In this document: piece after piece, positions 2,293-16,450 of the stretch
Layout of the letters: the number at the start of each line of letters is the position of its first letter
Position numbering within the stretch: position 1 is the first letter of the stretch
NCBI GenBank assembly: GCA_002712135.1
Contig: PASO01000030.1
Coordinates: 1 to 16,690, forward strand
DNA from: Gammaproteobacteria bacterium
GTDB taxonomy: Bacteria > Pseudomonadota > Gammaproteobacteria > Pseudomonadales > Azotimanducaceae
Length of the DNA: 16,690 nucleotides
Direction of reading: 5' to 3'
The notes under the pieces: model-generated
Told to the model about the DNA's origin: nothing
The model's input: only the letters and a program-made list of their open reading frames with translations
Database searches by the model: none
Translations under genes and position numbers: made by a program

Positions 2293-3204
2293 ATGACTGC
2301 CCCTAACCCAGAACCGACAAGAGACCTTCAGGTTGCAAAGTCCAATATGGACAAATTCGGTTATTGCGTACTAACAAATGTCCTATCTATCAATGAAGTA
2401 GACGCATTGCGTACTCGTCTGTTTGAACAGGTTGAGGCAGAAGAACAACTGGATAAAACCTGGGTTAACCCTATTGGCAAACAGCTGGTTAAGTTCCTGG
2501 TGAACAAGGGCCAGGTATTTCGCGACCTCTTGTTTCAACCAAATTATCGAGCCGTAGTCGATCATGTTCTGGGGCCAGAATATCTTCTATCTTCGATAAA
2601 TGCGCATATCGCTTACCCCGGTGGATCATTGGAATTCCATCGGGATCAATTCTGGATGCCGCCACCTTCTAACGATAAAAAAGAACCTCTGATCAGAGCC
2701 GGCGCCATCAATCGTAAAGAACACAAGGGTCATCATGTACTCGGCGAAGATAACCCCCTAACAATTTCACCCGCCGTTGTCTGTAATTCCATGTGGATGC
2801 TGGACGACTTTACTGAAGAAAACGGCGCAACCATTCTAGTACCTGGTAGCCACCTCTCAGGCCGGGAACCAGACCCAAGGCTCGACACGGATGCCAACTG
2901 GACATCTGCTGTCGGTCCTGCCGGTAGCGTCGCGATCTTTGACGGACGCACCTGGCATTCAACCGGGCTAAACGTTACGGACCAGCCTCGAGTTGGTATC
3001 AACACCGGCTTTTGTGCGCCGCAATTTCGGCAACAGGAAAACTTTCAACTCGGCACCGCGCCCGAGGTGCTGGAAGAAGCCTCCAACGAATTGCTGGCAC
3101 TACTGGGTTTCAAAACCTATTTGGGCTACGGCGGTACCGAGGGGAATCACGAATGGGTGGCTCGAGGACAATATGGACTGGGTGAGCTAAAGCCCAAGCC
3201 CTAG
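2293..3204 (+). CDS. PhyH-family Fe(II)/2-oxoglutarate-dependent dioxygenase
   Basis: A 303-residue protein of the phytanoyl-CoA dioxygenase family, which hydroxylates an unactivated carbon using O2 and 2-oxoglutarate. The double-stranded beta-helix iron triad is visible: H116 and D118 in LEFHRDQFW, and H222 in GRTWHSTG. R233 in DQPRVGINT is the expected 2-oxoglutarate-binding arginine. NGATILVPGSHLSG (177-190) is the usual loop before the distal histidine. Length is normal and there is no signal peptide. Bacterial members act on many substrates, including CoA esters, phosphonates, quaternary amines and halogenation targets, so the name does not imply phytanoyl-CoA. It is convergent with the hydratase gene and overlaps it by the stop codons. 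The start has no Shine-Dalgarno. Confidence 0.9.
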   Translation: MTAPNPEPTRDLQVAKSNMDKFGYCVLTNVLSINEVDALRTRLFEQVEAEEQLDKTWVNPIGKQLVKFLVNKGQVFRDLLFQPNYRAVVDHVLGPEYLLSSINAHIAYPGGSLEFHRDQFWMPPPSNDKKEPLIRAGAINRKEHKGHHVLGEDNPLTISPAVVCNSMWMLDDFTEENGATILVPGSHLSGREPDPRLDTDANWTSAVGPAGSVAIFDGRTWHSTGLNVTDQPRVGINTGFCAPQFRQQENFQLGTAPEVLEEASNELLALLGFKTYLGYGGTEGNHEWVARGQYGLGELKPKP

Positions 3205-3959
3205 ATGAGGTCAAATTCGATTCGACCGAAGGCCCCGTAATCCCCAACGTAGTGGCCCGGTTGCCCAGGCTGGGGGCCACCCAGTGCGCCAGTCATCAGC
3301 AACTGGCCGGGTTCAAGGGTATAACCATGAGCAACCGCTTTATTGATCAGCCAGCATACCGCCTGGATCTGACCACCCATGGCATCGGTACCCACACCCT
3401 CTGATAACTTTTCGTCATCTCGTGACATCACTACGCGGACCGCATCTAGGTCATCTGTCGATGCAGCTACATCACCCGGAACAAAGGCCGCGGCCGCAGA
3501 ATTTACCGCGACCAGATCAGCGCCTGTACGTGAACCATCCGGGGCAAAAGCGGGGTCCGCAATTTCAAACACAGGAATCGCCTTATCGAGGTAATCCCAA
3601 ACGGTCTCTGGCGTTACCGACGCACTTATTGCAGCGCCAACACGGTAGCCGATTTCAGTTTCGATGACCGGGCCATGTAAATCGCCAAGATTAAACGAAC
3701 CACCGGATACACCCTCGCCGGCTTTGGGAAGCACACCAAACACAGGTTCACTCACGCCCAATGCCTTCTGGCCTGCCTCGTTGCTGAGCGCGGCTTTGAA
3801 TCCAGCTATGGTCATCCCGGACTGGGCAACCACTTTCGCCTGAATCTCATAGGCACTATCAAGATCAAGCGGCGACTCGGCAGACAATATCGGTCTCAAT
3901 TCGCCTGCTGCCATCGCAGCGACAATTCTATCCGCACTCTCCTGAACTCGATCTACCAT
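3201..3959 (-). CDS. 2-oxopent-4-enoate hydratase / oxaloacetate-type decarboxylase of the FAH superfamily
   Basis: A 252-residue protein of the MhpD/DmpE/DmpH branch of the fumarylacetoacetate hydrolase superfamily. These enzymes hydrate 2-oxopent-4-enoate or decarboxylate 4-oxalocrotonate in meta-cleavage pathways, using a divalent metal. The three carboxylate ligands are present: E100 and E102 in GPVIETEIGYRV, and E132 in FEIADPAF. The family order is kept: an N-terminal helix region, AGFKAALSNEAGQKALGVSEP (53-73), the metal site, then a C-terminal LLMTGALGGPQPGQPG segment. GAGGGG-like Shine-Dalgarno GAGGGG at 3966-3971 lies six bases before the ATG. Hydratase versus decarboxylase cannot be decided, and no other meta-cleavage gene is in the window. 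It is divergent from the DUF3080 gene and convergent with PhyH. Confidence 0.87.
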   Translation of the reverse strand: MVDRVQESADRIVAAMAAGELRPILSAESPLDLDSAYEIQAKVVAQSGMTIAGFKAALSNEAGQKALGVSEPVFGVLPKAGEGVSGGSFNLGDLHGPVIETEIGYRVGAAISASVTPETVWDYLDKAIPVFEIADPAFAPDGSRTGADLVAVNSAAAAFVPGDVAASTDDLDAVRVVMSRDDEKLSEGVGTDAMGGQIQAVCWLINKAVAHGYTLEPGQLLMTGALGGPQPGQPGHYVGDYGAFGRIEFDLI

Positions 3960-4092
3960 AGTGAACCCCTCGTAACTACTAATGAAAAGTACCGAGAGGT
4001 TACTTTGAACGGGACAACGGAATCAAATCCTATTAAGGCAAACCGGGAATTTACTTTTGGTAACTGATTCGACAGGTGCTATTTTGACAAGC

Positions 4093-5121
4093 ATGACGAT
4101 AATCCAGTTAAAGTTTTCGTGGCCGACTATAGCATTGATTACCGTTACTGCCTGCGCACCTATTGAGAATAGTTTGCAGATACAGGTTCGCGACTACAAC
4201 GAACGTTTAATGCGGGTGCTCGATGAATCCGTGGCGCAACCAGCAATTTCGTCATCGTTGCCCAGATTGCCCCGCGTTCGCGACCTGGTAATGACGTTAG
4301 AAACTGGTAGTGTCAATCCTATCGAGTACCTACAGCTTGGGGATTGCGAACTGCAGAACCTGATTGCGAAACGCAACTCCAGTCTGGGTAAGCTCGCCCT
4401 GCCATCTCAGCGTCTGGTATACGAGCTTAATTTCCTGCGATTATCGGACGCCTGCCAGGCACAACTCAATGATCAGGAACTCAGCGCTTACCTGCAGGAA
4501 GTAACAGAGAAAAAACGTGAACTACTTCCATCGCTAATCTGGCAAGCGACGCTGGGAAGCAAAGAGTTCCGTGAACTATGGAAGTACCGAAAATTATCTG
4601 AGCTTCCCGCACTGGATCCCCAACTTGAGCTGACCCTTTCACGCCTTAACAATTATATCGACGCGTGGTTAGCAGGAGACTACCGGGTAGACTCAGCGCG
4701 ACTGGAAGCTCAGTTATCAATCATCAGGTGGGGCAATGCCGGGGAGCATCTAAGCCAATGGATGATATTCAGTGATGAACTTGCTGTGGGCACCGCCGTC
4801 CTGAATTCACGACTGGCAAAACAACCTCTGTGTTTCAAGGAGATGAAAACGAAGGTCGCAGACAGATTCCACGCATTAGTTCGACAGTTCCTGATCGGAT
4901 CTATCCAGCCGCAGGTGGCGCGTCTGAATCGGGACCATTACTCTTTGTTTCCATTACTCCGATCTTTGGAAGGTAAACTCAGCATCGGCGAGCCATCTGC
5001 ATACACTGCCTGGCGGGAACAGCGGGACCTCCTGCTGGACCATTCGGTCTCCGCGTTATCACGACATGTCAGATCGCTCGAACCCCTCCTGAAGCAATGC
5101 GGCTACCTTCCTACCGGATGA
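4093..5121 (+). CDS. DUF3080 family lipoprotein
   Basis: This matches the gammaproteobacterial DUF3080 family, whose function is unknown. Characteristic segments are DYNERLMRVLDE shortly after the signal, the LPRLPRVRDL segment, and KRNSSLGKLALPSQRLVYEL. From the ATG at 4093 the N-terminus is MTIIQLKFSWPTIALITVTAC, a short basic then hydrophobic signal peptide ending in a lipobox-like VTAC; the cysteine at residue 21 would be the lipidated first residue of the mature protein. The frame stays open to a TTG at 4057, and a second TTG at 4084 has AGGTG at 4074-4078 at good spacing, so the true start may be a few codons upstream; the lipobox is unaffected. Mature length of about 320 residues is normal. 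It looks unrelated to the catabolic genes around it. Confidence 0.83.
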   Translation: MTIIQLKFSWPTIALITVTACAPIENSLQIQVRDYNERLMRVLDESVAQPAISSSLPRLPRVRDLVMTLETGSVNPIEYLQLGDCELQNLIAKRNSSLGKLALPSQRLVYELNFLRLSDACQAQLNDQELSAYLQEVTEKKRELLPSLIWQATLGSKEFRELWKYRKLSELPALDPQLELTLSRLNNYIDAWLAGDYRVDSARLEAQLSIIRWGNAGEHLSQWMIFSDELAVGTAVLNSRLAKQPLCFKEMKTKVADRFHALVRQFLIGSIQPQVARLNRDHYSLFPLLRSLEGKLSIGEPSAYTAWREQRDLLLDHSVSALSRHVRSLEPLLKQCGYLPTG

Positions 5122-5129
5122 TTTAGCGA

Positions 5130-6083
5130 CTACGCCATGGCTTCCCTGATACCTGCTAGTATCTTGTCGGAATCCGGGAACACATGATCCTCAAGCGTTG
5201 GGCTATAGGGAATCGGAACATTGAGCGCGCATATACGCTTGACCGGTGCCTTCATTGCCGCAAAGGTCTCCGCATGCTCGGTTGCTGCCGTGGCAATCTC
5301 AGCCGTGGCACCAGCGGTTGCACCGGCTGCATCAACGATCACTAACCGACCGGTCTTCTGTACCGAAGCCCTGAGGGTTTCAACGTCCATGGGTACCAGG
5401 GTACGAGGATCGATTATCTCTACCGATACACCTTCCTTGTCGAGGATTTCCGCAGCAGGAAGGGTGTCATGCAACATCCGACCCAGGGTGACCACCGTAA
5501 CATCAGTGCCCTCGCGCACGATGTGGGCCTCACCCAATGGCAGCGTGTATTCTTCCTCAGGTATTTCACCTTCAAACGCATACATGTTGCCTGCCTCAAA
5601 TGAGATAACCTGGTTGTCCTCGCGGATGGCCGATTTGAGTAGGCCCTTCAGATCGTAAGGTGTCGATGGCAGGATCATCTTCAAACCTGCCAGGTTCATA
5701 AACATGGAATATGGATTCTGAGAGTGCTGGGCAGCCATCCGCCCGCCGCCACCACACGAGGTGCGAAAAGTGATGGGAAACTTCGCCTGTCCACCAAACA
5801 TATAATGGATTTTCGATACCTGATTGACAATCTGATCCATGGCGACGAAGGAAAACGTCACCATGCTCCAGTTGACGATGGGCCTGAATCCCGAGCCTGC
5901 CGCACCCAGCCCAATGCCGGTGAATCCACCTTCCGCAATAGGTGTCGCTCTCACCCGTGACGTGCCGAATGCATCAGTGAGTGCATCCGGTGCATTTGTG
6001 GAAAGATGAATTGTCTTATCATCTTTCTTCATTTCCTCCATGACCGCTTCCAAACCGGCCTGAGAATAGGTAACTGTTCTCAT
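5130..6083 (-). CDS. 2-oxoacid/acetoin dehydrogenase E1 component, beta subunit
   Basis: A 317-residue E1 beta (transketolase pyrimidine-domain plus C-terminal domain) that with E1 alpha forms the ThDP-dependent decarboxylating component of pyruvate-, branched-chain- or acetoin-type dehydrogenases. TPIAEGGFTGIGLGAA at 48-62 carries the conserved ThDP-activating glutamate E51. The C-terminal domain shows TVVTLGRMLHDTLPAAE, VEIIDPRTLVPMD and LVIVDAA. The usual GEDVG segment near residue 28 is replaced by HLSTNAPDAL, so this is a divergent member. The ATG at 6083 is chosen over an in-frame TTG at 6104 because AGGGGA lies six bases upstream and the TTG start would overlap E1 alpha. It follows E1 alpha by ten bases, so the two are translationally close. 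No E2 or E3 gene follows; the next gene is convergent. Confidence 0.9.
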   Translation of the reverse strand: MRTVTYSQAGLEAVMEEMKKDDKTIHLSTNAPDALTDAFGTSRVRATPIAEGGFTGIGLGAAGSGFRPIVNWSMVTFSFVAMDQIVNQVSKIHYMFGGQAKFPITFRTSCGGGGRMAAQHSQNPYSMFMNLAGLKMILPSTPYDLKGLLKSAIREDNQVISFEAGNMYAFEGEIPEEEYTLPLGEAHIVREGTDVTVVTLGRMLHDTLPAAEILDKEGVSVEIIDPRTLVPMDVETLRASVQKTGRLVIVDAAGATAGATAEIATAATEHAETFAAMKAPVKRICALNVPIPYSPTLEDHVFPDSDKILAGIREAMA

Positions 6084-6089
6084 TGTGAT

Positions 6090-6095
6090 TCCCCT
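6090..6095 (-). promoter_or_regulatory. Shine-Dalgarno site of E1 beta, overlapping the E1 alpha stop
   Basis: AGGGGA on the minus strand, six bases before the ATG at 6083. It overlaps the TAG stop of E1 alpha at 6096-6094, which suggests coupled translation of the two subunits and decides the E1 beta start. Confidence 0.65.
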
Positions 6096-7059
6096 AATCT
6101 GCAAAAACGTCTACGAGTGCCTCTTCCGGGTCCGGAAATGGACTCTCTTCGGCAAACTTCACCGCGTCCAGGACTTCCTGGGCGATTTCCCCTTCCATTT
6201 TCGCCCAGTCTTCCTCGATCATAACCTCCCGCTCAATCAGATCAGCAGCGAACAATTTGATCGGATCTCTTTCCATCCACGCTTCAACCTGATCCGCCGG
6301 CCGTCTATCTATGGCTTCCTTTCTCTCCGTATGGGTGCGCTGGCGGTAGGTTTTGCATTCAATCAGGCTGGGACCCTCGCCAGCCCGCGCTCTTGCAACC
6401 GCTGCCTCAGCAACCTCGTGAACGGCCAGCACATCGTTACCATCCACGATCACGCCCGGAATGCCATAACCCGCAGCACGAGCGGCTATGTCTTCCAACG
6501 CTAAGGTACCCTTAGCCTCCGTATCGGCAGACCACAGATTGTTTTCACACACGTAGATCATCGGCAACTTCCACGCCGAAGCAATATTGATCGACTCATG
6601 GAATGGCCCGGCATTTGAAGCACCATCGACAAAGAACGACACCGCTACCTAACCTTTCCCCTCGAGTTGGGCAGCCAGACCAGCACCAGTCACAATGGGA
6701 ATACCTCCTGCCACTATGCCATTAGCACCCAGCATGCCGATGCTAAAATCTGCAATGTGCATCGAGCCGCCCTTGCCCTTGCAGTATCCCGTCGCCCGAC
6801 CGTATAGTTCTGCCATCATGCGATTGAGATCAGCACCCTTGGCGATGCAATGTCCATGACCACGGTGTGTGCTAATAATGCGATCATCGATATTGAGCGC
6901 GCTACATATTCCTGTCGCGACCGCTTCCTCACCGATATAACAGTGCACCACACCGTAGATGGCACCTCCTATATAGTCCTCAGAAGCTCGCTCCTCAAAG
7001 CGGCGTATGGTTTGCATAGTGCGCAACATCTCTAGTTGTTTCTCAGCGCTAAGAGCCAT
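6094..7059 (-). pseudogene. 2-oxoacid/acetoin dehydrogenase E1 component, alpha subunit, interrupted by an in-frame TAG
   Basis: Read as one frame this is a normal-length E1 alpha of 321 codons. The first part (7059-6649, 136 residues) has YIGEEAVATG, STHRGHGHCIAKGAD and KGKGGSMHI, all typical. It ends LAAQLEGKG followed by TAG at 6651-6649, where relatives read on as EGKG-x-VAVSFFGDGAS. The same frame continues after the TAG as VAVSFFVDGASNAGPFHES, through VCENNLWS, to a normal C-terminus ending in VFAD. In the ThDP/Mg motif the first glycine of GDG is valine (V144, GTC at 6630-6628); D145 and N173 remain. The upstream start is sound (AAGGGGGA before the ATG). A GTG at 6642, with GAGGGGAAAGG shortly before it, could restart translation of the second half. 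Explanations are recent inactivation, sequencing error, suppression or reinitiation; identity as E1 alpha is clear. Confidence 0.85.
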
Positions 7060-7093
7060 CTGTTTCCCCCTTCTTTAGTTTTGTGCAGGTCTT

Positions 7094-8824
7094 CTAGGCA
7101 GGCCTGTCGCCCTTCATTACCACCATCGTTCGACTATCAACACCGGGTAACATTTTCGACGGATCGCGAGTTACCACAACATCGATAATCGTCGGTATGT
7201 CTCGCTCTGCGATACCATCGGAAAACGCCGCAGCTAGTTCAGCTGGGTCTTCCACTCGGATGCCATGACAACCCATCTCACGGGCGACGTTCGCGTAATT
7301 GGTTTCGTCCAGATCACTTGACTGGTAACTGCCTTGACCGTACATGTTATGTTGCAATGCCTTTACATACCCCGAGGCTGCATTGTTCACAATGGCCAGC
7401 GTAAATCCGAGACCCAGCCGGCGGGCGGTTTCGAGCTCACCGATCATCATATTAAAACCCGCGTCACCGGTCAGCCCAACCACGGGCGAATTTGGCGCAC
7501 CCAGCTGTGCCCCAATCACGCCAGGCAGGCCGTAACCAATGGACGCAAAACCCCGGTTGGCGATATAACTGCGGCCGGATCGCTGAGAGTCATAAAGCAG
7601 TCCTGTCCAGTGCGCTGCGAACCCACCATCAACAACTAGTATGCCGTCCTCCGGCATAACGCCCTGCAGTTCACGAATCATCCGCGCCATATCTATTGGC
7701 CGTTCGTCAGAAGTATATCTAGGTTCAGCCTCGGCACGCCACGCGGTCATGCGCTTGGAGATTTCGGCTAGATAGTTTTCGCGCCGAGCCTGAATAGTTT
7801 CTGTATCGGCGACTAACAGTTCATGCAGATCTCGCAACCCCTCAGCAGCATCACCCCATAGCGCTATATCAGCGGGCGTGGTACGGCCAATTTCCTCAGC
7901 AACAATATCAAGATGGATAAACGGAACCTCTCGAGGTGGCAGCGCATAGCGTTTCGTGGCGATCTCACCCATCTTGCAACCAACAGACAGGACGCAGTCA
8001 GAGGATTCGATCAGTTCGTTCGCAATTCTCGACCAGCGCCCGAACAACCCCACACTAAGTGGGTGCGTACAGGGAATCGCCCCTTTGCCACTAAGAGTCT
8101 GGGCGACCGGGCACTGAATTATCTCGGCCAGGTTAAGCAGTTCATCGTAAGCCCTGGAGAGATGTACGCCACCTCCCGCTAGAATCACCGGGCGGTTGGC
8201 GCTCCCTAGTTTCCCAGCAGCTTGAGCTAGCGCATCACGACTGGGCCGGGAGCGCATTCCTGGTATTGATATAGTGTTTGAATCCGCATAGAAATCATCC
8301 GCAGGGAATTCAAAATCGTCATGGGCAATGTCCTCAGGCACATCCAAAATAACCGGGCCAGGACGACCGGAAGTGGCGACGCTGTAAGCTCGGCGGACGA
8401 GCTCAGGGATACGCAGGCCCTGTTCGATTCTAATCAACGACTTGACCGCGGGTTCAAGCATTGCTGACTGCCTGGTCTCCTGGGTCATATTTTTCCAAGA
8501 GTGATCGCGATTGCTGTTACCAACGATAACAACGATGGGTACGCCCGCGTTTAGTGACTCAACCAAACCCGTCAACAGGTTCGTGGCTCCTGGTCCCAAA
8601 GTCGCATCGCAGATGCCAGGTCTGCCCGTTACCCTGGCCCAGGCATCGGCGGCGAAAATTCCGCACCGCTCATCGTTGATCAAAGAATGGGTAAGCCCCA
8701 GTTCCCGCACAGCCTCATAGAAAGGTAGCAGCTGAAAGCCGGCCATACCGAACATTGGAGCAGGATCATGGAGCTTGAGCATTTCAGCAAGAGCCCTGCC
8801 TCCGTTCATGGATACTGTCGACAT
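7094..8824 (-). CDS. Acetolactate-synthase-like ThDP-dependent enzyme (first of three)
   Basis: A 576-residue protein with the three-domain decarboxylase fold: N-terminal pyrimidine-binding, central, and C-terminal pyrophosphate-binding domains. Counted from the preceding in-frame TTG codon, E53 in NDERCGIFAADAWAR is the cofactor-activating glutamate. ATLGPGATNLLTG (75-87) matches the acetolactate synthase loop. RPVILAGGGVHLS (212-224) opens the middle domain. GDAGFNM (454-460) and NN (481-482) are the ThDP/Mg motif, GDA replacing GDG. No regulatory small subunit is nearby, so a biosynthetic role is unlikely; a 2-oxo acid decarboxylase or carboligase is inferred. The ATG at 8824 is chosen because AGGAGG at 8834-8829 is four bases upstream. 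It lies between the SHGG-repeat gene (57 bp upstream) and E1 alpha (34 bp downstream) on the same strand, so one operon is likely. Confidence 0.88.
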   Translation of the reverse strand: MSTVSMNGGRALAEMLKLHDPAPMFGMAGFQLLPFYEAVRELGLTHSLINDERCGIFAADAWARVTGRPGICDATLGPGATNLLTGLVESLNAGVPIVVIVGNSNRDHSWKNMTQETRQSAMLEPAVKSLIRIEQGLRIPELVRRAYSVATSGRPGPVILDVPEDIAHDDFEFPADDFYADSNTISIPGMRSRPSRDALAQAAGKLGSANRPVILAGGGVHLSRAYDELLNLAEIIQCPVAQTLSGKGAIPCTHPLSVGLFGRWSRIANELIESSDCVLSVGCKMGEIATKRYALPPREVPFIHLDIVAEEIGRTTPADIALWGDAAEGLRDLHELLVADTETIQARRENYLAEISKRMTAWRAEAEPRYTSDERPIDMARMIRELQGVMPEDGILVVDGGFAAHWTGLLYDSQRSGRSYIANRGFASIGYGLPGVIGAQLGAPNSPVVGLTGDAGFNMMIGELETARRLGLGFTLAIVNNAASGYVKALQHNMYGQGSYQSSDLDETNYANVAREMGCHGIRVEDPAELAAAFSDGIAERDIPTIIDVVVTRDPSKMLPGVDSRTMVVMKGDRPA

Positions 8825-8828
8825 CAAA

Positions 8829-8834
8829 CCTCCT
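8829..8834 (-). promoter_or_regulatory. Shine-Dalgarno site of the first ThDP enzyme
   Basis: AGGAGG on the minus strand, four bases before the ATG at 8824; it favours this ATG over the in-frame TTG codon immediately before it. Confidence 0.7.
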
Positions 8835-8881
8835 ATTATCTGGTTATTATCCTAAAACTTAATATCGTGCTTCTAGTCTCA

Positions 8882-9664
8882 TTACGAACTAAACATTTCC
8901 ACAAATTCGGGCACAGACGCACCAATCACAACACCCCGATCCTCTGCCAACGCATTTCGGTGCGACACAACACCACTTTCCCAAGCTGAGCGTGCATCGC
9001 CAATGCGTGCGGTAGCAGCGTCGACTGTGACTGCCGGAACGCCCGCCCGTTCTAATATTTCGAGTCGTTTTATTCCCGCCTGATCAATCCCAACACCGGC
9101 ATCGTTGAACACAGCACCTCGCGCCTGCGCCGCAATTCCATATCTCGGTCTACCCGCCAAAACACCACCGTGTGAACCAGTAATGATAATAGCACCAGCA
9201 TCATTGTTCTTAACGAGAGCCGCCGAATCGCAGGCGATCACCCGGACCGGTGCCTCTTTAAGTATTGCTCGAGATTCTTCGTAAGCAGGCACATCACCTG
9301 CATAAGTTTGTCCGCTGCTCATACATTGCGCAGCTTCACCGCATGTCTGACCAACCTCGCAACCAAGTTCACGGGCCACTTCATTGCAATGACTAATGCG
9401 ACCTCGCTCGACCATATCTGCGCCATCACCGATACGCGCCGAACTATTGCTCACTGTTGCTGCTGCGACACCCAGTGGTTGTAGGTATTCGAGCGAACCC
9501 AGGCCGGCGTTATCGAGGCCCACCCCTGCATCGTTCAGTATGACTCCACGCAGACCAGCGAGGGCTGCCAGATAGCCACAGTAACGCCCCCCATGAGAAC
9601 CGGCCACGAGTACCGCACCAGAAAACTCGGGACCAAGCTTGGTAATGCTGTCTGCTATTTGGAT
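8882..9664 (-). CDS. Uncharacterised protein with an internal duplication around SHGG / NDAGVG motifs
   Basis: I do not recognise this family. Numbered from a GTG at 9607, two related halves are visible. The first has SHGG (4-7), LNDAGVGLDNAG (24-35), SARIGD (56-61) and ISHCNE (71-76). The second has GAIIITGSHGG (138-148), FNDAGVGIDQAG (167-178), TARIGD (199-204) and VSHRNA (214-219). The offset is a nearly constant 141-143 residues, so the gene arose by duplication and fusion. The hydrophobic strand before SHGG looks like the first strand of an alpha/beta domain. Starting at the GTG would cut that strand from the first half, and the frame is open and protein-like back to 9664 (GPEFSGAVLVAGSHGG). 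The only good ribosome site, AGGGGGGA, is seven bases before an ATC at 9664, with a stop codon at 9685-9683. The start is therefore probably a non-standard ATC, or was lost. It is the first gene of the minus-strand cluster. Confidence 0.7.
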   Translation of the reverse strand: MQIADSITKLGPEFSGAVLVAGSHGGRYCGYLAALAGLRGVILNDAGVGLDNAGLGSLEYLQPLGVAAATVSNSSARIGDGADMVERGRISHCNEVARELGCEVGQTCGEAAQCMSSGQTYAGDVPAYEESRAILKEAPVRVIACDSAALVKNNDAGAIIITGSHGGVLAGRPRYGIAAQARGAVFNDAGVGIDQAGIKRLEILERAGVPAVTVDAATARIGDARSAWESGVVSHRNALAEDRGVVIGASVPEFVEMFSS

Positions 9665-9671
9665 GCTTAAA

Positions 9672-9679
9672 TCCCCCCT
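9672..9679 (-). promoter_or_regulatory. Strong Shine-Dalgarno site with no standard start codon after it
   Basis: AGGGGGGA on the minus strand. Downstream in the SHGG frame the codons are GAT TTA AGC ATC CAA ATA; the ATC at 9664 is at ideal spacing, and no ATG, GTG or TTG occurs in that frame until 9607. The site points to translation beginning near 9664. Confidence 0.5.
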
Positions 9680-9844
9680 ATATCAGTAAATATACTCTAA
9701 CCTGCCATTTACTGTACATCAGTGTTCACGAAGATGGCTCCGAATGGCAAATCCTTAAAGCTTGTCTTTACGGTCGGGACACGCGCTGCCCGTCCATTGA
9801 CAGAAACAAAAGTGAGCAACATTCTACTCTGGCACCATTTACTT

Positions 9845-9850
9845 TATAGT
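9845..9850 (+). promoter_or_regulatory. Possible -10 box for the dienelactone hydrolase operon
   Basis: TATAGT, five of six matches to the -10 consensus, 31 bases before the ATG at 9882 in the divergent spacer 9665-9881. A perfect TTGACA occurs at 9797-9802 but is much too far away to pair with it, so the promoter is weakly supported. Confidence 0.25.
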
Positions 9851-9881
9851 TGGTCGTTTTGCACAGAAAGGACAAACGCCG

Positions 9882-10766
9882 ATGCCTATCTCCGAATGGC
9901 CACCAGCACCCGATCTGCAGCGAGCAGACATTAGCTTTAACTTTCGCGACAACGACTACCTAGGTCACCTAGTTGCACCACCGGAATCAGTTGGTCCCAG
10001 ACCGTTAGTCTTGGTGATTCACAACTTTCAGGGATTAAAGTTTTTCGACGTTGATGTGGCGGAGTATTTAGCGCGTGTCGGCTACGTCGGTCTTGCGATT
10101 GACCTATACGGCAACACACTACCGCCAGCCCAGAGGCTTTTTCCTACCGATGAGAGCAAAGTTAAATCATTCATGACTGCCACCTTCGAGGCCATGGTGG
10201 ATCTCGACCACGACTACGAAAAATTCAGGGCACTACTTCAGGAGTGGCTGGATCAGGGGCTCGCCCACCCCTCTGTTGACTCGTCTATACCTGGCGCTGC
10301 TATTGGCTACTGCTTTGGCGGCGTCGCTGTAATCGAAGCCGTCCGAGGAGGCCTGAACCTTGGCGGCGTCGTATCATTTCACGGACTACTGCAAACTGGT
10401 GAAGACCCCAGTCCTGCGCGAATGGGAGTAGAACGGCTACCCATTAAGGACTGCGAGAACAACTACAATGCAAATACCACCATCTTCATAGAGAATGGCG
10501 CTGAAGATCATCTTGTTCCAAGCGAAAGCCGAAGACGATTTTTTGACGAGATGGATAACGCAGGTGTTGACTGGTGCTTTAACGACCATGCAAAAACACC
10601 GCACGGGTTCGCTCTACCTCCTACTCTAGGTGGCCCTGGGAAACTACACAAGTCTACTGACCGGCGATCCACCATGCACATGTTAAGTCTGTTTCGTGAA
10701 ATCTTCCCGAATGTTCCACAAAACCCCGTCACCCATAACGGCGCCGGGACTTCTATTCCTGTTTAA
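9882..10766 (+). CDS. Dienelactone hydrolase family alpha/beta-hydrolase
   Basis: A 294-residue cytoplasmic alpha/beta-hydrolase of the dienelactone hydrolase family. The N-terminal core shows RPLVLVIHNFQG (40-51) with the oxyanion region and VGLAIDLYG (69-77). The nucleophile is a cysteine, C144, in AIGYCFGG (140-147), as in true dienelactone hydrolases. The other triad members are D209 in NGAEDHLVP (205-213) and H241 in TPHGF. The family opens enol-lactones or cleaves related esters in modified ortho-cleavage and other catabolic routes; the substrate here is unknown. Several residues beyond the core C-terminus (NVPQNPVTHNGAGTSIPV) are extra. AAAGGA at 9867-9872, nine bases before the ATG, supports the start. 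It leads a plus-strand group, with the GH32 gene only 12 bp downstream. Confidence 0.9.
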   Translation: MPISEWPPAPDLQRADISFNFRDNDYLGHLVAPPESVGPRPLVLVIHNFQGLKFFDVDVAEYLARVGYVGLAIDLYGNTLPPAQRLFPTDESKVKSFMTATFEAMVDLDHDYEKFRALLQEWLDQGLAHPSVDSSIPGAAIGYCFGGVAVIEAVRGGLNLGGVVSFHGLLQTGEDPSPARMGVERLPIKDCENNYNANTTIFIENGAEDHLVPSESRRRFFDEMDNAGVDWCFNDHAKTPHGFALPPTLGGPGKLHKSTDRRSTMHMLSLFREIFPNVPQNPVTHNGAGTSIPV

Positions 10767-10778
10767 AGATATTGAGCC

Positions 10779-12092
10779 ATGACCGACTACAATGAACTGC
10801 ACCGACCCCAATTTCATTTCACTGCAAAAGAAAACTGGATTAATGACCCGAATGGCCTCGTCTACTGCGACGGCGTATGGCATATGTATTTTCAACACAA
10901 CCCCGAGTCTACTATCTGGGGTAATATGACCTGGGGACATGCAATCAGTGATGATCTTCTGCATTGGAAGCAACTGGAACATGCACTCTACCCGGATGAA
11001 CACGGAACCATGTTCTCGGGATCAGCCGTCATAGATCACCAAGGGACAGCGGGCTTTGGGGAAGAGGTAATTCTATTATTTTATACCGCAGCAGGTGCCT
11101 ATGCCATTCCCAAGCGCGAGCATACTCAGTGCCTGGCCTATAGCACCGATGGCGGAATGACCGTCCAGAAATATGACAGTAATCCTATCGTCGATAGCTT
11201 TGCAAAGGGCAATCGAGATCCAAAAGTCATATGGCATGAAGAGAGTGAGCAATGGATCATGGCGCTTTTTCTAATCGATAATGACTTCTGCCTGTTACGT
11301 TCGACTGATACAAAGTCCTGGGAAAGATTTCAGGACATAACGCTCCCCGGTGTATCAGAGTGTCCTGACTTCTTTCCACTAATGGACGAGTCAGGCAACG
11401 AGCGTTGGATCTTCTGGGGAGCCAAAGGCAAATATCTGGTGGGGAGTTTCAATGGTGAACAATTTGTTCCGGAAACGGAGCTCCTGACCAGCGAACACGG
11501 CACTAACGGATATGCAGCACAAACCTGGAGCGACGCGCCTGATGGTCGCCGTATCCAGATATCCTGGATGCAGGGTGGGCTCTTCCCGGAAATGCCCTTC
11601 AATCACCAAATGTCCATCCCGGTTGAACTTAGCCTTGTCGGTTCCGGCAAAGACGTTACCCTGAACCGGTGGCCCATCAGCGAACTGGAAACACTGCAAA
11701 AAAACAGGACCAACCCTGGCGCTAGAACCGCGACAAAAGCTGTGCCTCTGGTGGTAGACACGCAAGCCAAACTACTGGACGTCACTTTTTCAGCAAGTCG
11801 ACGAGGTGAAGGTTTCGTTTATATCACAGTGCGGGGACAACCCATGGTGTTGCATTGGAAAGAGAACGAGCTTAGGTTTAAAGATCGTTCGATTCCTCTG
11901 GGTAACAGCGCATCCCCTGAGATCAGGATACTAGTAGACAAAGCTTCAATCGAAATATTTATTGATCGAGGTTTAGCTTCTGCTTCCTTCAACTTCCTGC
12001 CGGGCGCCTACGAACACCCACTAACGATGCATTCCGACGACGATCAGGATATCGATATTCTTGAAGTTAACGAACTGGACAGAGTCTGGTAG
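10779..12092 (+). CDS. Glycoside hydrolase family 32 (beta-fructofuranosidase/fructanase type)
   Basis: A 437-residue GH32 enzyme, hydrolysing beta-fructosyl linkages in sucrose, sucrose-6-phosphate or fructans. The three family signatures are present: WINDPNG at 20-26 with nucleophile D23, NRDPKV at 145-150 with the transition-state stabiliser D147, and SECPDFF at 193-199 with acid/base E194. The five-bladed propeller occupies roughly 8-300 and a C-terminal beta-sandwich follows, containing the expected late segment of the form VDKASIEIFIDRG. There is no signal peptide, so the substrate must be cytoplasmic; no sugar transporter or fructokinase is in the window. It lies between the dienelactone hydrolase (12 bp) and a ThDP enzyme (45 bp) on the same strand, an odd setting for an invertase. 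The Shine-Dalgarno is weak. Confidence 0.9.
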   Translation: MTDYNELHRPQFHFTAKENWINDPNGLVYCDGVWHMYFQHNPESTIWGNMTWGHAISDDLLHWKQLEHALYPDEHGTMFSGSAVIDHQGTAGFGEEVILLFYTAAGAYAIPKREHTQCLAYSTDGGMTVQKYDSNPIVDSFAKGNRDPKVIWHEESEQWIMALFLIDNDFCLLRSTDTKSWERFQDITLPGVSECPDFFPLMDESGNERWIFWGAKGKYLVGSFNGEQFVPETELLTSEHGTNGYAAQTWSDAPDGRRIQISWMQGGLFPEMPFNHQMSIPVELSLVGSGKDVTLNRWPISELETLQKNRTNPGARTATKAVPLVVDTQAKLLDVTFSASRRGEGFVYITVRGQPMVLHWKENELRFKDRSIPLGNSASPEIRILVDKASIEIFIDRGLASASFNFLPGAYEHPLTMHSDDDQDIDILEVNELDRVW

Positions 12093-12137
12093 TGTTTTAA
12101 GGTCTCACAGAAATTAGAAAACCATAGCGAGATAACC

Positions 12138-13856
12138 ATGCGTAAAGCTAAACAAGTTGTAGGTACCGGCGGCGAATTACTGATGCATCAACTGGTTGCC
12201 CAGGATGTAGATTACGCGTTTACGAATACAGGTAGCGCGGAAGCCGGCTTCTTTGATGCTTTCCTCACGGTCCCAGGTGTTCAACCGGTACTATTGTTAA
12301 ACGAGTCTTTAGTTTTATCCGCAGCGGATGGTTACGCGAAAGCATCTCGCAAGCCTGCATTCGTAAATGTGCACCTCGCAGCCGGAACGCGACAAGGATC
12401 AGGCCAGCTGTTCAATGCGTACTTCGATGGGACCCCAATGGTCGTTACTTCCGGTATGCGCGACGCCGGCGATTTTGGTGATCACAACACTCTGGGTGTT
12501 AGTGCCGGCTACTCTTCGATGAGTGTGGTGCAGGACGTTACCAAAAAGCGTTGGGAGATACGCGACCCTCGTGGCGTACCAGCCGCGACCCGCAGAGCTT
12601 TCAAGGAGGCAATGACAATGCCTTCCGGACCTGTGTATCTTGCCTATTCCGGTTCTGCGCTCGACACCAAGGACGTGGAAGGGACTATCATCCCGGCAGA
12701 GGCTCTAGAGATGGCACACCATCCGGACGAAGCCACCCTCAACCAAATTCACGACGCGCTACTTAATGCCGAGAATCCTTTGATAGTAGTCGGCCCAGAA
12801 ATTCAGAAGGCGAGCGCACAACAGGAAATACTTGATCTTGCAGATAATTACGCGGTTCCTGTCGCAATCAGTTTCTTCGACTTCGGTTCCTTTCCCAGAT
12901 CACACGCCAGCTTTGTCGGCATGGTGGAAACCCTGGACGACACAAGCTATGACGTCGTCTGTTGCGTGGGATATCGCCCAAATACTAATGGTACGCCAGC
13001 GGATTATCGCTTCCCCAACGCATTCAAGATTGGTATCGGCCATGACCCTGCGATATTGGGTGGCACATTTGCCCTCGACGTGAGTATCTGGTCGAACGTC
13101 AAGCACTCGCTCACTGCACTGAACGCATTGTGGAATCCAGCTGATTCGAATCTACATCATTTGTCTCAACGTCGAAGCGAGCTAAAAAAAGCCAGTGAAG
13201 AGCGAATCGTCCAGCAAACTGAAGGCGCTCTGGCTCACGCCAACGATAATCCTATCCATCCTAGTTTCCTGGGCCAGCGCATGGCTGATCTCCTCGCTCC
13301 AAACACAACGGTCGTCTCAGAGAATTTCAGAGCAGGCGATCATCTGATGCCTTTCGGTTTTGAGAAAGATGACTGGCGTTTGGTCCGTGCCTATGGTGGA
13401 AGCCTCGGTTACGGTGTGGGCGGTGCCGTCGGCGCGCAACTGGCCTCGCCAGACACGCCGCTGGTCCTCAGCATTGGTGACGGCTCAGTGATGTATAGTT
13501 CTTCCGGCTTCTGGACAATGGCGAGGTACAATTTACCAATCCTCACGGTGGTCTGGAATAACATGAATTACCAAACGGTTCGCGTGAATTTCGCTGGCTG
13601 GGGCGGCAACATGAAGGAACAAAACAAATACCCCGAAACCTACCTGGGCGACCCTGAAATCGACTTCGTCATGCTCGCAAAATCACAAGGTATTGATGGA
13701 CAGCAGGTAACTGAACCGGGTGAACTCGATACTGCCCTCAGGCGAGCGAGAGAAGTTCAAGCTGCCGGGGAACCCTATTTGCTGGACGTACGCATCACCA
13801 ACCTGGGCGCCGGCGCAGATCAGAGTTGGCACAAGGAATTTAAATTGGGAACCTAA
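12138..13856 (+). CDS. Benzoylformate-decarboxylase-like ThDP-dependent enzyme (second of three)
   Basis: A 572-residue decarboxylase-fold ThDP enzyme. E56 in LNESLVLSAADGYAKAS is the activating glutamate; GDGSVMYS (447-454) with NN at 474-475 is the ThDP/Mg motif. The first domain resembles benzoylformate decarboxylase closely. S33 in TNTGSAEAGF aligns by eye with that enzyme's Ser26, and H79 in FVNVHLAAGT with its catalytic His70. The second catalytic histidine (His281 there) has no obvious partner in VCCVGYRPNTNGTP (274-287). Related but altered chemistry on a 2-oxo acid is therefore inferred: decarboxylation to an aldehyde or carboligation. No acetolactate synthase small subunit is nearby. 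It is the third gene of the plus-strand group, 45 bp after GH32. The sequence before the ATG (GAGATAACC) is only a fair ribosome site. Confidence 0.88.
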   Translation: MRKAKQVVGTGGELLMHQLVAQDVDYAFTNTGSAEAGFFDAFLTVPGVQPVLLLNESLVLSAADGYAKASRKPAFVNVHLAAGTRQGSGQLFNAYFDGTPMVVTSGMRDAGDFGDHNTLGVSAGYSSMSVVQDVTKKRWEIRDPRGVPAATRRAFKEAMTMPSGPVYLAYSGSALDTKDVEGTIIPAEALEMAHHPDEATLNQIHDALLNAENPLIVVGPEIQKASAQQEILDLADNYAVPVAISFFDFGSFPRSHASFVGMVETLDDTSYDVVCCVGYRPNTNGTPADYRFPNAFKIGIGHDPAILGGTFALDVSIWSNVKHSLTALNALWNPADSNLHHLSQRRSELKKASEERIVQQTEGALAHANDNPIHPSFLGQRMADLLAPNTTVVSENFRAGDHLMPFGFEKDDWRLVRAYGGSLGYGVGGAVGAQLASPDTPLVLSIGDGSVMYSSSGFWTMARYNLPILTVVWNNMNYQTVRVNFAGWGGNMKEQNKYPETYLGDPEIDFVMLAKSQGIDGQQVTEPGELDTALRRAREVQAAGEPYLLDVRITNLGAGADQSWHKEFKLGT

Positions 13857-13872
13857 CGGCCAGAGTGGCCGT
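13856..13872. terminator. Hairpin between convergent genes, possible bidirectional terminator
   Basis: ACGGCCA, loop GAG, TGGCCGT: a perfect seven-base-pair GC-rich stem starting at the last base of the ThDP gene's TAA stop. It sits in the 44 bp gap between the converging ThDP and 3-hydroxyacyl-CoA dehydrogenase genes. Neither side has a run of T, so it is not a classical intrinsic terminator. Confidence 0.45.
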
Positions 13873-13900
13873 CAGGATCAATTCTGCTGCCAGAAACTAC

Positions 13901-14671
13901 TTACTTCCAGCCGCTTCTCGCGTTGGGCCCATCGGGGTATGGCCCTGCAGGCCAGCGAAAACCGAGCGTCATGGCGAGATTGACGTCTTGTCTTGTACCG
14001 ACGCCTTCCGCGACAAGCTTTTCTGCCTCTCTTCGAACTGCGGCCATAATGCGGTTACCGATAAATCCTGTATCACCGGGAACATCCTTCAACACGATAG
14101 GCGTCTTGCCCCAGCTCTTGCTCATATCAACGATCAGCTGAGTGATATCATCAGTCGTGTCTTCCGTATGCGTGACTTCAACCAGCTTCATAATGTTCGC
14201 CGGACTAAATAGATGCATACCGATGAACCGGTCTTTTCTGTTCGTAACCGCAGCAAGATCAGCAATCGTAAACATGGATGTATTACTGGCGAAAACCGCT
14301 TCATCCTTGACGACCTGATCCATTTCTTCCCAGACCTTCAATTTCAGAGGCTTGTTCTCAATTGCACCATCCTCACCGCCGCCGATAGCTTCGATAATCA
14401 TGTCACAATCTTTGAGATCCGCGACGTCAGTAGTAAAGCTCAGCCGACTCATTGCGGCATCCCTTTCGTCTTCAGTCATCTTCCCCATCTCAACGGCATT
14501 ATTGAATCCAAATCGACTGTTAAGAATAACGTCTTTAGAATTCTCAAGGATCTCGTCGGTCAGATCTCTGATGATCACGTTCTTGCCAGCCAGGACCGCG
14601 CACTGCCCAATGCCACCACCCATAACACCCGCACCTAAGATTCCAATGCATTTAATGTCTTCAAGATTCAT
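13901..14671 (-). CDS. 3-hydroxyacyl-CoA dehydrogenase, short C-terminal domain
   Basis: A 256-residue NAD-dependent L-3-hydroxyacyl-CoA dehydrogenase, oxidising a 3-hydroxyacyl-CoA to the 3-oxo form. The Rossmann motif GILGAGVMGGGIG is at 10-22, and D36 lies in the NAD-preferring position. The catalytic pair is present: H153 in GMHLFSPANIMKLVEV and E165 in the same segment. The SNTS segment (129-132) and GFIGNRI (202-208, N206) are also standard. The C-terminal dimerisation domain stops at LGFRWPAGPYPDGPNARSGWK, about 25-60 residues earlier than the 282-320 of typical relatives. It may be a naturally short subfamily or a truncated gene; the stop is only 44 bp from the converging ThDP gene. 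AGGAGA about ten bases before the ATG supports the start. It follows the third ThDP gene by 120 bp on the same strand. Confidence 0.87.
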   Translation of the reverse strand: MNLEDIKCIGILGAGVMGGGIGQCAVLAGKNVIIRDLTDEILENSKDVILNSRFGFNNAVEMGKMTEDERDAAMSRLSFTTDVADLKDCDMIIEAIGGGEDGAIENKPLKLKVWEEMDQVVKDEAVFASNTSMFTIADLAAVTNRKDRFIGMHLFSPANIMKLVEVTHTEDTTDDITQLIVDMSKSWGKTPIVLKDVPGDTGFIGNRIMAAVRREAEKLVAEGVGTRQDVNLAMTLGFRWPAGPYPDGPNARSGWK

Positions 14672-14791
14672 GTACTTATTATCTCCTATTAGCTATTTAA
14701 ACGAGCCAATGGGCTCAAAATTCAGGATGGGTATTCTACTGAAATCCACTGTCATTGAAATGCCAACTTTCCGTCTTCAAACAGTCAGCAG

Positions 14792-16450
14792 CTAGTTAAC
14801 CGTATTCTCCTCAACAAACCGATGCGGCGCTCGTGAATCCTCATTTCTCGTCTTCACGTCAATCAACACGGTCTTGCCTTCCTTATTAAGTTGCTCGGCC
14901 TGTTTTATTGCTGCTGGCAATTCTGATCCCTTGGTAACATAGAGTCCTTCGGCACCCATGCCCATAGCAATCTGCCCATAGTCACCGCTCATATGCGTTA
15001 CGCCAAACTGCTCACGAGCCGTCGGCGTACCACCTGGATAAGTTGCCATAATCCCATTGTTCAGCAACACAACGGTAATAGGTAGGCCTGCTCTCACTGA
15101 CGTCTCGATATCCAGACCGGACATCCCAAATGCCGCATCACCCATAAAAGCTACGCACGTACGCTCGGGCATGGCCTTCTTGGCGCCAATCATCAGGGGA
15201 ATCGAAGCCCCCAGGTGGGTCGTTTTACCCCATCCAACGTAACTGTGTGGTGTGGTCGCCGTATAAAATGGCCCGATTTCGTCCCGTGGCGCTCCCGCAT
15301 CATGGGTAACAATGCTGTTTTCCTTGTCCAGGTTCTGATCCAGTTCCCAGATAACACGATAGGGGCTGATCGGATCACTGTCGTTTTGTAGATAAGGCAT
15401 CCAGGAGGTCCACCAGGCGTCCTTTGCAGTCTTAATGCGCTCCAGGGCGCCAGTCTTTCGCCCACCTTCACCGATGAGGCCTTTAACCGCATCAATCATG
15501 AGCTCAAGCGTTAGCTTCGCGTCACCCACTAAACCTATGTCACATACCGTATCCTTGTTGACCTCATTCACATCGTTAACCGAATGAATAAGAAACTTGT
15601 TTGGATCAAACCGCTGTCCGTACGGAGTAGTGGTTAGGGAAGTACCCACAGCAAATATCAAATCTGATTCGTCCAACCACTGTCGCGCTGGCCCTGTGGT
15701 AGTCATCCCCCCGGAACCAATTGCCAGCGGATGTCTTTCATCGATAGCAGACTTGCCTACGAGGGAAGTATAAACCGGCACTTCAAGCAACTCGGCTAGC
15801 GTTCTTAGTTCCTCTGTAGCCTGTGCCGACATGACGCCAGCGCCAGCCCAGATCATTGGGTCTTTTGCATCAACCAGCGCTTTCGCCGCATCTGCAATAT
15901 CGCCTGCTGCAGGTACGCTGACGACAGTACGTGGCGATTGGTAATTGAATGCATCGTCAGGAATCTCCTGCCCGACTACATCCTGCGGCAATTCCACGAC
16001 GACCGGGCCTGGTGCAGCGGACTTAAGATGATGCATTGCTCGGCGCATCACGTTACCGGTTTCCTTCGGACTGGTAATAAACTCTGCGTGTCTCGACACA
16101 GTTCCCCAGGAGTTAACCGCCGAGAAATTCGGTCGTATAAATAGCTGATTCAGCGCATTACCGCCAGGCATCACCAGAATAGGAATGTTGTCCGCATTGG
16201 CCTGCGCCAGCCCGCCCATGGCGTTCTCAGCCCCAGCCTGCGACTGCATGCCTACCATGCTGATATTCTTGCGATCACTTACTCGCGAATAACCATCCGC
16301 AGCCATGACAGCACCCCGTTCGTGACGAAATGCGATTGGGCGAATACCCTCCTTCGCCAAGACCTCAATCATCGGGTTGCTTGGAAAGCAGGACATCCAG
16401 GTTAAGCCCTCTTCCTTCAGAATCTTCGCGATATACTCGGCACCATTCAT
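14792..16450 (-). CDS. Acetolactate-synthase-like ThDP-dependent enzyme (third of three)
   Basis: A 552-residue decarboxylase-fold ThDP enzyme, clearly different from the other two. E44 in FRHERGAVMAADGYSRVS is the activating glutamate; SQAGAENAMGGLAQA (70-84) is the adjoining loop. The middle domain begins at PMIWAGAGVMS (198-208). The ThDP/Mg motif is MGDAAFGMSG (436-445) with NN at 464-465, GDA in place of GDG, followed by NGIMATYPGG. The C-terminus ends in charged residues (NEDSRAPHRFVEENTVN). The family includes acetolactate synthase, glyoxylate carboligase, sulfoacetaldehyde acetyltransferase, oxalyl-CoA decarboxylase and 2-hydroxyacyl-CoA lyase; I cannot place it in one. AGGGGG lies a little upstream of the ATG. 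With the downstream 3-hydroxyacyl-CoA dehydrogenase it may form one transcription unit, which hints at a CoA-ester or hydroxy-acid substrate. Confidence 0.88.
   Translation of the reverse strand: MNGAEYIAKILKEEGLTWMSCFPSNPMIEVLAKEGIRPIAFRHERGAVMAADGYSRVSDRKNISMVGMQSQAGAENAMGGLAQANADNIPILVMPGGNALNQLFIRPNFSAVNSWGTVSRHAEFITSPKETGNVMRRAMHHLKSAAPGPVVVELPQDVVGQEIPDDAFNYQSPRTVVSVPAAGDIADAAKALVDAKDPMIWAGAGVMSAQATEELRTLAELLEVPVYTSLVGKSAIDERHPLAIGSGGMTTTGPARQWLDESDLIFAVGTSLTTTPYGQRFDPNKFLIHSVNDVNEVNKDTVCDIGLVGDAKLTLELMIDAVKGLIGEGGRKTGALERIKTAKDAWWTSWMPYLQNDSDPISPYRVIWELDQNLDKENSIVTHDAGAPRDEIGPFYTATTPHSYVGWGKTTHLGASIPLMIGAKKAMPERTCVAFMGDAAFGMSGLDIETSVRAGLPITVVLLNNGIMATYPGGTPTAREQFGVTHMSGDYGQIAMGMGAEGLYVTKGSELPAAIKQAEQLNKEGKTVLIDVKTRNEDSRAPHRFVEENTVN

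Follow-up and report, generated by a model that had tools for sequence, protein, structure and literature searches.

A recurring SHGG-ThDP1-E1 gene module beside a resident cluster of thiamine diphosphate enzymes in a gammaproteobacterial genome

Among the described systems nearest to the genes considered here are acetolactate synthase, in which the RFDDR stretch holds the acceptor-binding arginine and whose catabolic forms lack a small subunit anyway, the enzyme BbmA (8x3x, 8xod), benzoylformate decarboxylase, the E1 alpha and beta proteins (E1a and E1b) of acetoin/pyruvate dehydrogenase, and the D-apionate branch with its proteins OiaK and OiaX. We analyzed a stretch of 16,690 nucleotides of contig PASO01000030.1 (assembly GCA_002712135.1), referred to as the window, in which an earlier note had singled out positions 5,130-16,450 for three decarboxylase-fold enzymes dependent on thiamine diphosphate (ThDP1, ThDP2 and ThDP3) and an E1 alpha/beta pair, all assigned to one accessory pathway. 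Our preferred reading, held tentatively, is that the minus-strand block 9664-5130, which encodes ThDP1, the E1 pair and a protein designated SHGG, arrived by horizontal transfer as a catabolic module and now separates the FAH and DLH genes of an older cluster of the genus.

ThDP1 resembles acetolactate synthase in its whole-length ThDP fold, activating glutamate and GD[A/G]..NN motif, and can be aligned over almost its full length to acetolactate synthases and BbmA. It differs in scoring below the cut-off of the acetolactate synthase family TIGR00118 (362 bits, compared to 538.35), in having CKMGEIA at the stretch aligned to RFDDR, which it lacks, and in its usual partner, which is SHGG. A Pfam scan of twelve window proteins revealed no acetolactate synthase small subunit; the thirteenth protein, E1a, was seen through PF00676 (E1_dh). 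The literature searched gave no account of a pathway with such a gene set, and the earlier note had likewise known of none.

Synteny of the locus and recurrence of the module

The 11 kb is made up of two units: (i) a resident cluster, FAH-DLH-GH32-ThDP2-HAD-ThDP3; (ii) an inserted module, SHGG-ThDP1-E1a-E1b. The window's own genome (G000) was compared to six other genomes of the genus (G001-G006). In G002, the order is FAH, a gap of ~200-240 bp, DLH, GH32, ThDP2, HAD and ThDP3, and no match to SHGG, ThDP1, E1a, E1b or DUF3080 was found between FAH and DLH; G001 has the same arrangement minus ThDP2. The segment that is extra in the window, compared to these two genomes, is thus observed by synteny to lie between FAH and DLH. 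G003 carries DLH-SHGG-ThDP1-E1a-E1b-DUF3080-FAH-PhyH-sulfatase on contig 9 and GH32-ThDP2-HAD-ThDP3 on contig 99, an arrangement consistent with that of the window if the assembly broke between DLH and GH32. The 13 protein genes read in the window are as follows.

313-1761, plus strand: sulfatase (Pfam)
2293-3204, plus strand: PhyH (Pfam)
3201-3959, minus strand: FAH-superfamily protein, nearest 2-oxopent-4-enoate hydratase; left flank of the insertion, genus-resident (Pfam, NCBIfam, synteny)
4057-5121, plus strand: DUF3080 gene, within the segment absent in G002 and G001 (Pfam, synteny)
5130-6104, minus strand: E1b, intact, with an alternative ATG start at 6083 (Pfam Transket_pyr and Transketolase_C)
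6094-7059, minus strand: E1a, 2-oxo acid dehydrogenase type; broken as assembled, with an in-frame TAG and an altered GDG
7094-8827, minus strand: ThDP1, decarboxylase-fold; module core with SHGG (Pfam TPP N/M/C, NCBIfam, 70-row alignment, tree)
8882-9664, minus strand: SHGG, ~260 amino acids (aa), tandem DUF1805-like domain repeat
9882-10766, plus strand: DLH (dienelactone hydrolase family); right flank of the insertion, resident cluster (Pfam, synteny)
10779-12092, plus strand: GH32 N-terminal domain protein; resident cluster (Pfam, synteny)
12138-13856, plus strand: ThDP2, decarboxylase-fold, nearest benzoylformate decarboxylases; resident cluster (NCBIfam, PDB)
13901-14671, minus strand: HAD (3-hydroxyacyl-CoA dehydrogenase-like); resident cluster (Pfam, NCBIfam, synteny)
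14792-16450, minus strand: ThDP3, PRK06154-like ThDP enzyme; resident cluster (NCBIfam, genus orthologues)

The earlier note had placed the ThDP genes correctly, to within one start codon, and its three transcription groups were also recovered: SHGG-ThDP1-E1a-E1b on the minus strand, DLH-GH32-ThDP2 on the plus strand and ThDP3-HAD on the minus strand. The DUF3080 gene of the inserted segment has the highest ratio of nonsynonymous to synonymous substitution rates (dN/dS) among the 13 genes, 0.38 compared to G003; it is present in three of the seven genus genomes and, in G005, is located on another contig. The synonymous rate (dS) compared to G003 is 2.69 for GH32 and 1.10 for DLH, but only 0.19-0.40 for the neighboring ThDP2, HAD and ThDP3, a difference suggesting that the GH32-DLH stretch was replaced through recombination in one lineage.

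The linkage of SHGG, ThDP1 and the E1 pair, for which the earlier note had proposed a neighborhood search, recurs across several phyla. One ThDP1 scan of the genome collection yielded 73 loci; the locus of a close relative (L010) and L080 (24% identity) were dropped, and the remaining 71 were counted, a gene being scored as present when it matched the window's protein at 80 bits or more. SHGG was found in 60 of these loci, E1a in 50, E1b in 50 and all four genes in 43; 17 loci had SHGG without E1a, seven had E1a without SHGG, and four had neither. SHGG lies at most 400 bp from ThDP1 in 40 of the 71, and among the 48 loci with at least 3 kb on each side of ThDP1, SHGG was detected in 45 and E1a in 33. 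Identity to the window's proteins over the best stretch is 41-71% for SHGG, 33-79% for E1a and 35-74% for E1b. The loci come from Gammaproteobacteria, Alphaproteobacteria, Bordetella, Variovorax, Actinomycetota, Planctomycetaceae, Poribacteria, Latescibacterota, Gemmatimonadota and Eremiobacterota, and named isolates carrying the module include Shinella, Tistlia, Sedimentitalea and Tistrella. Recurring neighbors, among those scanned, are genes for tripartite ATP-independent periplasmic (TRAP) transporters, IclR, short-chain dehydrogenases/reductases (SDR), FAH, luciferase-like proteins, aldolases and dehydrogenases; DctP occurs in 14 of the 71 loci (all with E1a), DctQ in 14, DctM in 15 and IclR in 23. 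Ten loci have two E1 alpha genes. In Alphaproteobacteria, ThDP1 is flanked by outward-pointing E1 alpha genes in L021, L023, L026, L036, L037, L043, L044, L067 and L074. A sulfatase homologous to that of the window is found near SHGG-ThDP1 in nine of the 71 loci (L014, L015, L025, L033, L034, L040, L042, L048 and L082).

In a quick 79-row tree, the ThDP1 sequences of the window and of L010 grouped with five Poribacteria, five Latescibacterota and one Gemmatimonadota (SH-aLRT 100); ThDP2, ThDP3 and the paralogues are on very long branches of this tree, where their positions are not safe to read. From this grouping we infer that the module was probably acquired by horizontal transfer from a lineage of the Poribacteria/Latescibacterota/Gemmatimonadota type. 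A binning error is not the cause of the grouping, since the same contig bears the genus cluster and G003 shares the junction.

These distributions bear on the proposal of the earlier note that a single accessory pathway, with successive 2-oxo/2-hydroxy intermediates, employs the E1 pair together with all three ThDP enzymes. The genes are physically close in the window, the two contigs of G003 fit the same order, and Latescibacterota L013 has a 59% ThDP3 homologue ~1.4 kb past E1b. However, ThDP2 was found in none and ThDP3 in only one of the 71 ThDP1 loci, and G002 and G001 have the resident cluster but not the module. The genus counts speak against the proposal as well: SHGG is present in two of the seven genomes, compared to six for ThDP2 and all seven for ThDP3 or a paralogue (ThDP3 orthologues of 84-98% are found in five of the six other genomes). 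Linkage of ThDP2 to ThDP3 holds in G000, G003 and G002, but in G005 and G006 the two genes are on separate contigs; this separation is a weak test, since the G006 contigs measure just 14 and 12 kb and the genes of G005 are located 4-7 kb from the end of a contig. Overall, a single pathway is very improbable, and the lesson of the window is that adjoining paralogous enzymes need not belong to one pathway.

Placement of the three ThDP enzymes

As the earlier note had observed, the three decarboxylase-fold proteins are distinct, and each has TPP N, M and C domains, a glutamate at the activating position and GD[A/G]...NN, in the forms GDAGF..NN (ThDP1), GDGSV..NN (ThDP2) and GDAAF..NN (ThDP3). None of the three reaches a curated cut-off for acetolactate synthase; membership in that ordinary family would have spoken against the note's proposal. 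The best NCBIfam and PDB match of ThDP2 is benzoylformate decarboxylase, yet its score with NF005485 is 241 bits and the cut-off is 493. ThDP3 narrowly misses NF004807 (PRK06154), with 595.4 bits and a cut-off of 607. BbmA is the best solved sequence match of both ThDP1 and ThDP3, but a distant one.

ThDP1 falls under the cut-off of every one of the 25 NCBIfam families shown, of 51 matching. The subfamily alignment (70 rows) has 125 invariant positions, including E53, G454, D455, W111, N113-E117 and N481-Y487 (with N481 and N482), and GCK.GEIA is nearly invariant at the RFDDR position. On these comparisons, we take ThDP1 for a subfamily of its own. The regular partner of SHGG in the examined loci, mostly found through ThDP1, is thus far an unassigned ThDP subfamily. 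Alternatively, ThDP1 could be a forward biosynthetic carboligase, similar to acetolactate synthase or BbmA, with SHGG as its partner. Its closest solved chains, BbmA (E 2.8e-67) and acetolactate synthases, agree with such a role, whereas the replacement of RFDDR by GCK.GEIA does not, and the scanned recurring neighbors suit uptake and breakdown better; we regard this possibility as quite unlikely.

The genome G000 contains 17 matches to TPP_enzyme_C, of which 13 fall in open frames 540-619 aa long; compared to this total, three ThDP genes within 9.4 kb is a dense arrangement. This density is tempered by the existence of further pairs on contigs C8 and C35 and by the origin of the window's three genes from two units of different history. 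The additional decarboxylase-fold pairs are ~5.4 kb (C8) and ~1.5 kb (C35) apart, as measured between C-terminal domains.

The E1 pair and its partners

The E1 alpha/beta pair described in the earlier note stands in part: E1b is intact, but E1a is not a whole gene. In the E1a frame 7059-6094, an in-frame TAG at 6649-6651 ends the product after residue 136 of ~321, and seven codons past the TAG there is an altered GDG motif; a genome-wide PF00676 search revealed the same single stop. Twelve E1 alpha relatives with over 70% identity, that of L010 included, are open through the stop site and keep the GDG. The dN/dS values compared to G003 are 0.080 for E1a, 0.064 for E1b, 0.066 for ThDP1 and 0.118 for SHGG. 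Since the value for E1a is in line with those of the other three genes, any loss of E1a must be very recent. It should be noted that the window has zero ambiguous bases, whereas 117 and 109 N are scattered over two 20 kb stretches beyond it on the contig; these N may be either assembly ambiguities or withheld bases, and they leave room for a consensus error as the source of the stop.

These observations also bear on the possibility that the module is decaying or dead in this genome, with E1a broken and the remainder on its way out. The stop and the altered ThDP motif, seven codons apart, are what such decay would leave. Conversely, the low dN/dS values of the four genes (0.06-0.12) point to selection until very recently, E1a is absent in 15 of the 48 well-flanked loci, so that the core may not need it, and the room for a consensus error further weakens the case. 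We consider decay unlikely. If the stop is real, the module of the window would run, if at all, as SHGG and ThDP1, the set seen in E1-less loci.

The earlier note had also remarked on missing partners, and this observation holds: no E2, E3 or acetolactate synthase small subunit is present among the Pfam-scanned window proteins. E2 was not found beside E1 in the window, and matches occur only elsewhere in the genome, the nearest at C30:48761-49438; for E3, the Pfam scan of the window proteins, the sole place where it was sought, gave none. With three E2-type proteins of G000 as queries, E2 homologues were detected at 1e-8 in three of the 73 ThDP1 loci. Acetoin/pyruvate dehydrogenase E1 alpha and beta are the nearest described E1 proteins, judged by the score of the L010 E1a with TIGR03182; this score (352.6 bits) is under the cut-off (393.85), and the rarity of E2 homologues in ThDP1 loci and the broken alpha gene of the window are further differences. 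The L010 E1a has the loop HRGHGHCIAKGAD..GYCKGKGGSMH, which we take to be acetoin dehydrogenase-like. Neither of the two features expected of a 2-oxo acid or acetoin dehydrogenase complex, an intact E1 alpha and beta pair and E2/E3 encoded with E1, was found here.

SHGG and the candidate reaction

The searched protein set contains at least 4,915 relatives of SHGG, and no Pfam or NCBIfam family was found for the window's protein. PF08827 (DUF1805) was not called on it at 1e-3, and is precomputed on 19 among the 120 homologues listed. The SHGG fold matches that of the DUF1805 protein TA1206 (1qw2), from which SHGG differs in being a tandem pair, in its identity of 13% and in the lack of a PF08827 call on the window protein. 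In PMC9425974, DUF1805 is listed among poorly characterized methanogen families linked to tRNA methylase.

A profile search that started from SHGG covered 398 genomes of the window's phylum, Pseudomonadota (1e-20, with at most six candidates scored per genome). SHGG is rare in this set: six of the 398 genomes match, the window's own included, and two of the matches are half-length (~113-120 positions). Three other genomes have full-length SHGG: (i) in L137, the order is IclR-E1a-E1b-DctP-DctQ-DctM-ThDP1-SHGG; (ii) in L136, a phosphogluconate-dehydrogenase-like gene, an OiaK-like kinase and an OiaX-like RuBisCO-like protein are found in place of ThDP1; (iii) in L135, SDR alone among the genes sought is present, with neither ThDP1 nor a RuBisCO-like protein. 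The half-length, single-repeat relatives are L138 (G252) and L139 (G372), and the L139 copy adjoins an SDR gene. Thirteen plasmid records match SHGG, of which eight were examined. In three haloarchaeal plasmid loci, SHGG adjoins genes for a four-carbon acid sugar kinase and a RuBisCO-like protein; in the other five, it lies by SDR, acyl-CoA, FAH or DLH genes or, in Ponticoccus, has replication and dehydrogenase genes as neighbors. For ThDP1, the plasmid records gave no match at 1e-90.

Returning to the preferred reading, the module would break down a small 2-hydroxy-3-oxo (acetolactate-like) or 2-oxo acid, as far as gene content allows such a prediction. The substrate would be taken up by the TRAP transporter, where the locus has one; SHGG may prepare it by isomerization or hydrolysis, a guess from gene position; ThDP1 would split the C-C bond adjoining the carbonyl; and the E1 pair would load the resulting 2-oxo acid or acyl unit onto the lipoyl carrier of an E2/E3 system encoded elsewhere. 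This scheme of uptake, cleavage and acyl transfer draws on the binding protein, on TRAP ligands and on E1-TRAP cassettes with a lipoyl protein. The nearest solved structure to the DctP of the loci is 4p8b (E 5.6e-138, residues 5-342 aligned), a structure described as holding (S)-2-acetolactate. A review names 2-acetolactate among TRAP ligands (PMC5812351). E1-TRAP cassettes also exist alone, in Azospirillum, where the 19 kb examined yielded no match to ThDP1 or SHGG, and in Thermus, where a single run of plasmid genes (L133:6766-11725) encodes both E1 subunits, a free-standing lipoyl protein of 82 aa and a TRAP transporter. This lipoyl protein is nearest to acetoin dehydrogenase E2, and no E2 catalytic gene is annotated there.

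Several observations weigh against this reading. The substrate and reaction are predicted, in part through the presumed ligand of a related structure; the module of the window has no transporter or regulator; and E1a is absent from the minority of well-flanked loci mentioned above. The 71 loci were found via ThDP1, and the counts describe the neighbors of ThDP1. Starting from SHGG instead, only one of the three other full-length genomes pairs it with ThDP1 and E1, and the 13 plasmid matches to SHGG have no counterpart for ThDP1 at 1e-90.

The neighbors of SHGG outside the ThDP1 loci raise another alternative, namely that the substrate of SHGG and ThDP1 is a branched sugar acid of the 3-oxo-isoapionate type, ThDP1 replacing the kinase and the RuBisCO-like protein. 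3-Oxo-isoapionate is a hydroxylated acetolactate. RuBisCO-like enzymes act on 3-oxo-isoapionate-4-phosphate in D-apiose breakdown (PMC6302742). The RuBisCO-like protein and four-carbon acid sugar kinase are beside SHGG in the three haloarchaeal plasmid loci and in G200; for these proteins in L128 and G200, OiaX and OiaK are the best-scoring models, and a related phosphogluconate-dehydrogenase-like gene is common to G200 and two of the haloarchaeal plasmids. However, the scores (504.5 and 452.6 for OiaX, 445.5 and 529.8 for OiaK) are all below the cut-off of 700, so that SHGG neighbors in some archaeal and bacterial loci are nearest to the D-apionate branch while remaining under its cut-offs. 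Six genomes have OiaX above the cut-off, none of them among the six SHGG-positive ones (apparently in the same 398 genomes), and among 22 genomes with an OiaX-like match, only G200 has SHGG. G000 has no OiaX-like match at 1e-80, and no RuBisCO-like or kinase match was found in the 73 ThDP1 loci. This alternative is very unlikely.

A bolder reading, for which we see only a slim chance, is that SHGG and ThDP1 form a new paired system, a lyase for branched acetolactate-type 2-hydroxy-3-oxo acids that needs no prior phosphorylation, with the double-DUF1805 protein supplying the right isomer. If so, it would be an alternative to the kinase and RuBisCO-like route encoded next to SHGG in archaea and some bacteria; it would also hint at the function of DUF1805. 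Because the module is compact, is present in named isolates and has its own TRAP binding protein in 14 of the 71 loci, its substrate is directly searchable; finding it would show at the same time what a new ThDP subfamily and a DUF1805-type protein do.

The start of SHGG deserves a comment. Homologues begin ~20 residues ahead of the first ATG, GTG or TTG (GTG 9607), a G-rich, Shine-Dalgarno-like run lies just upstream of ATC at 9664-9662, and L010 is arranged alike; this minus-strand ATC is the likely start codon.

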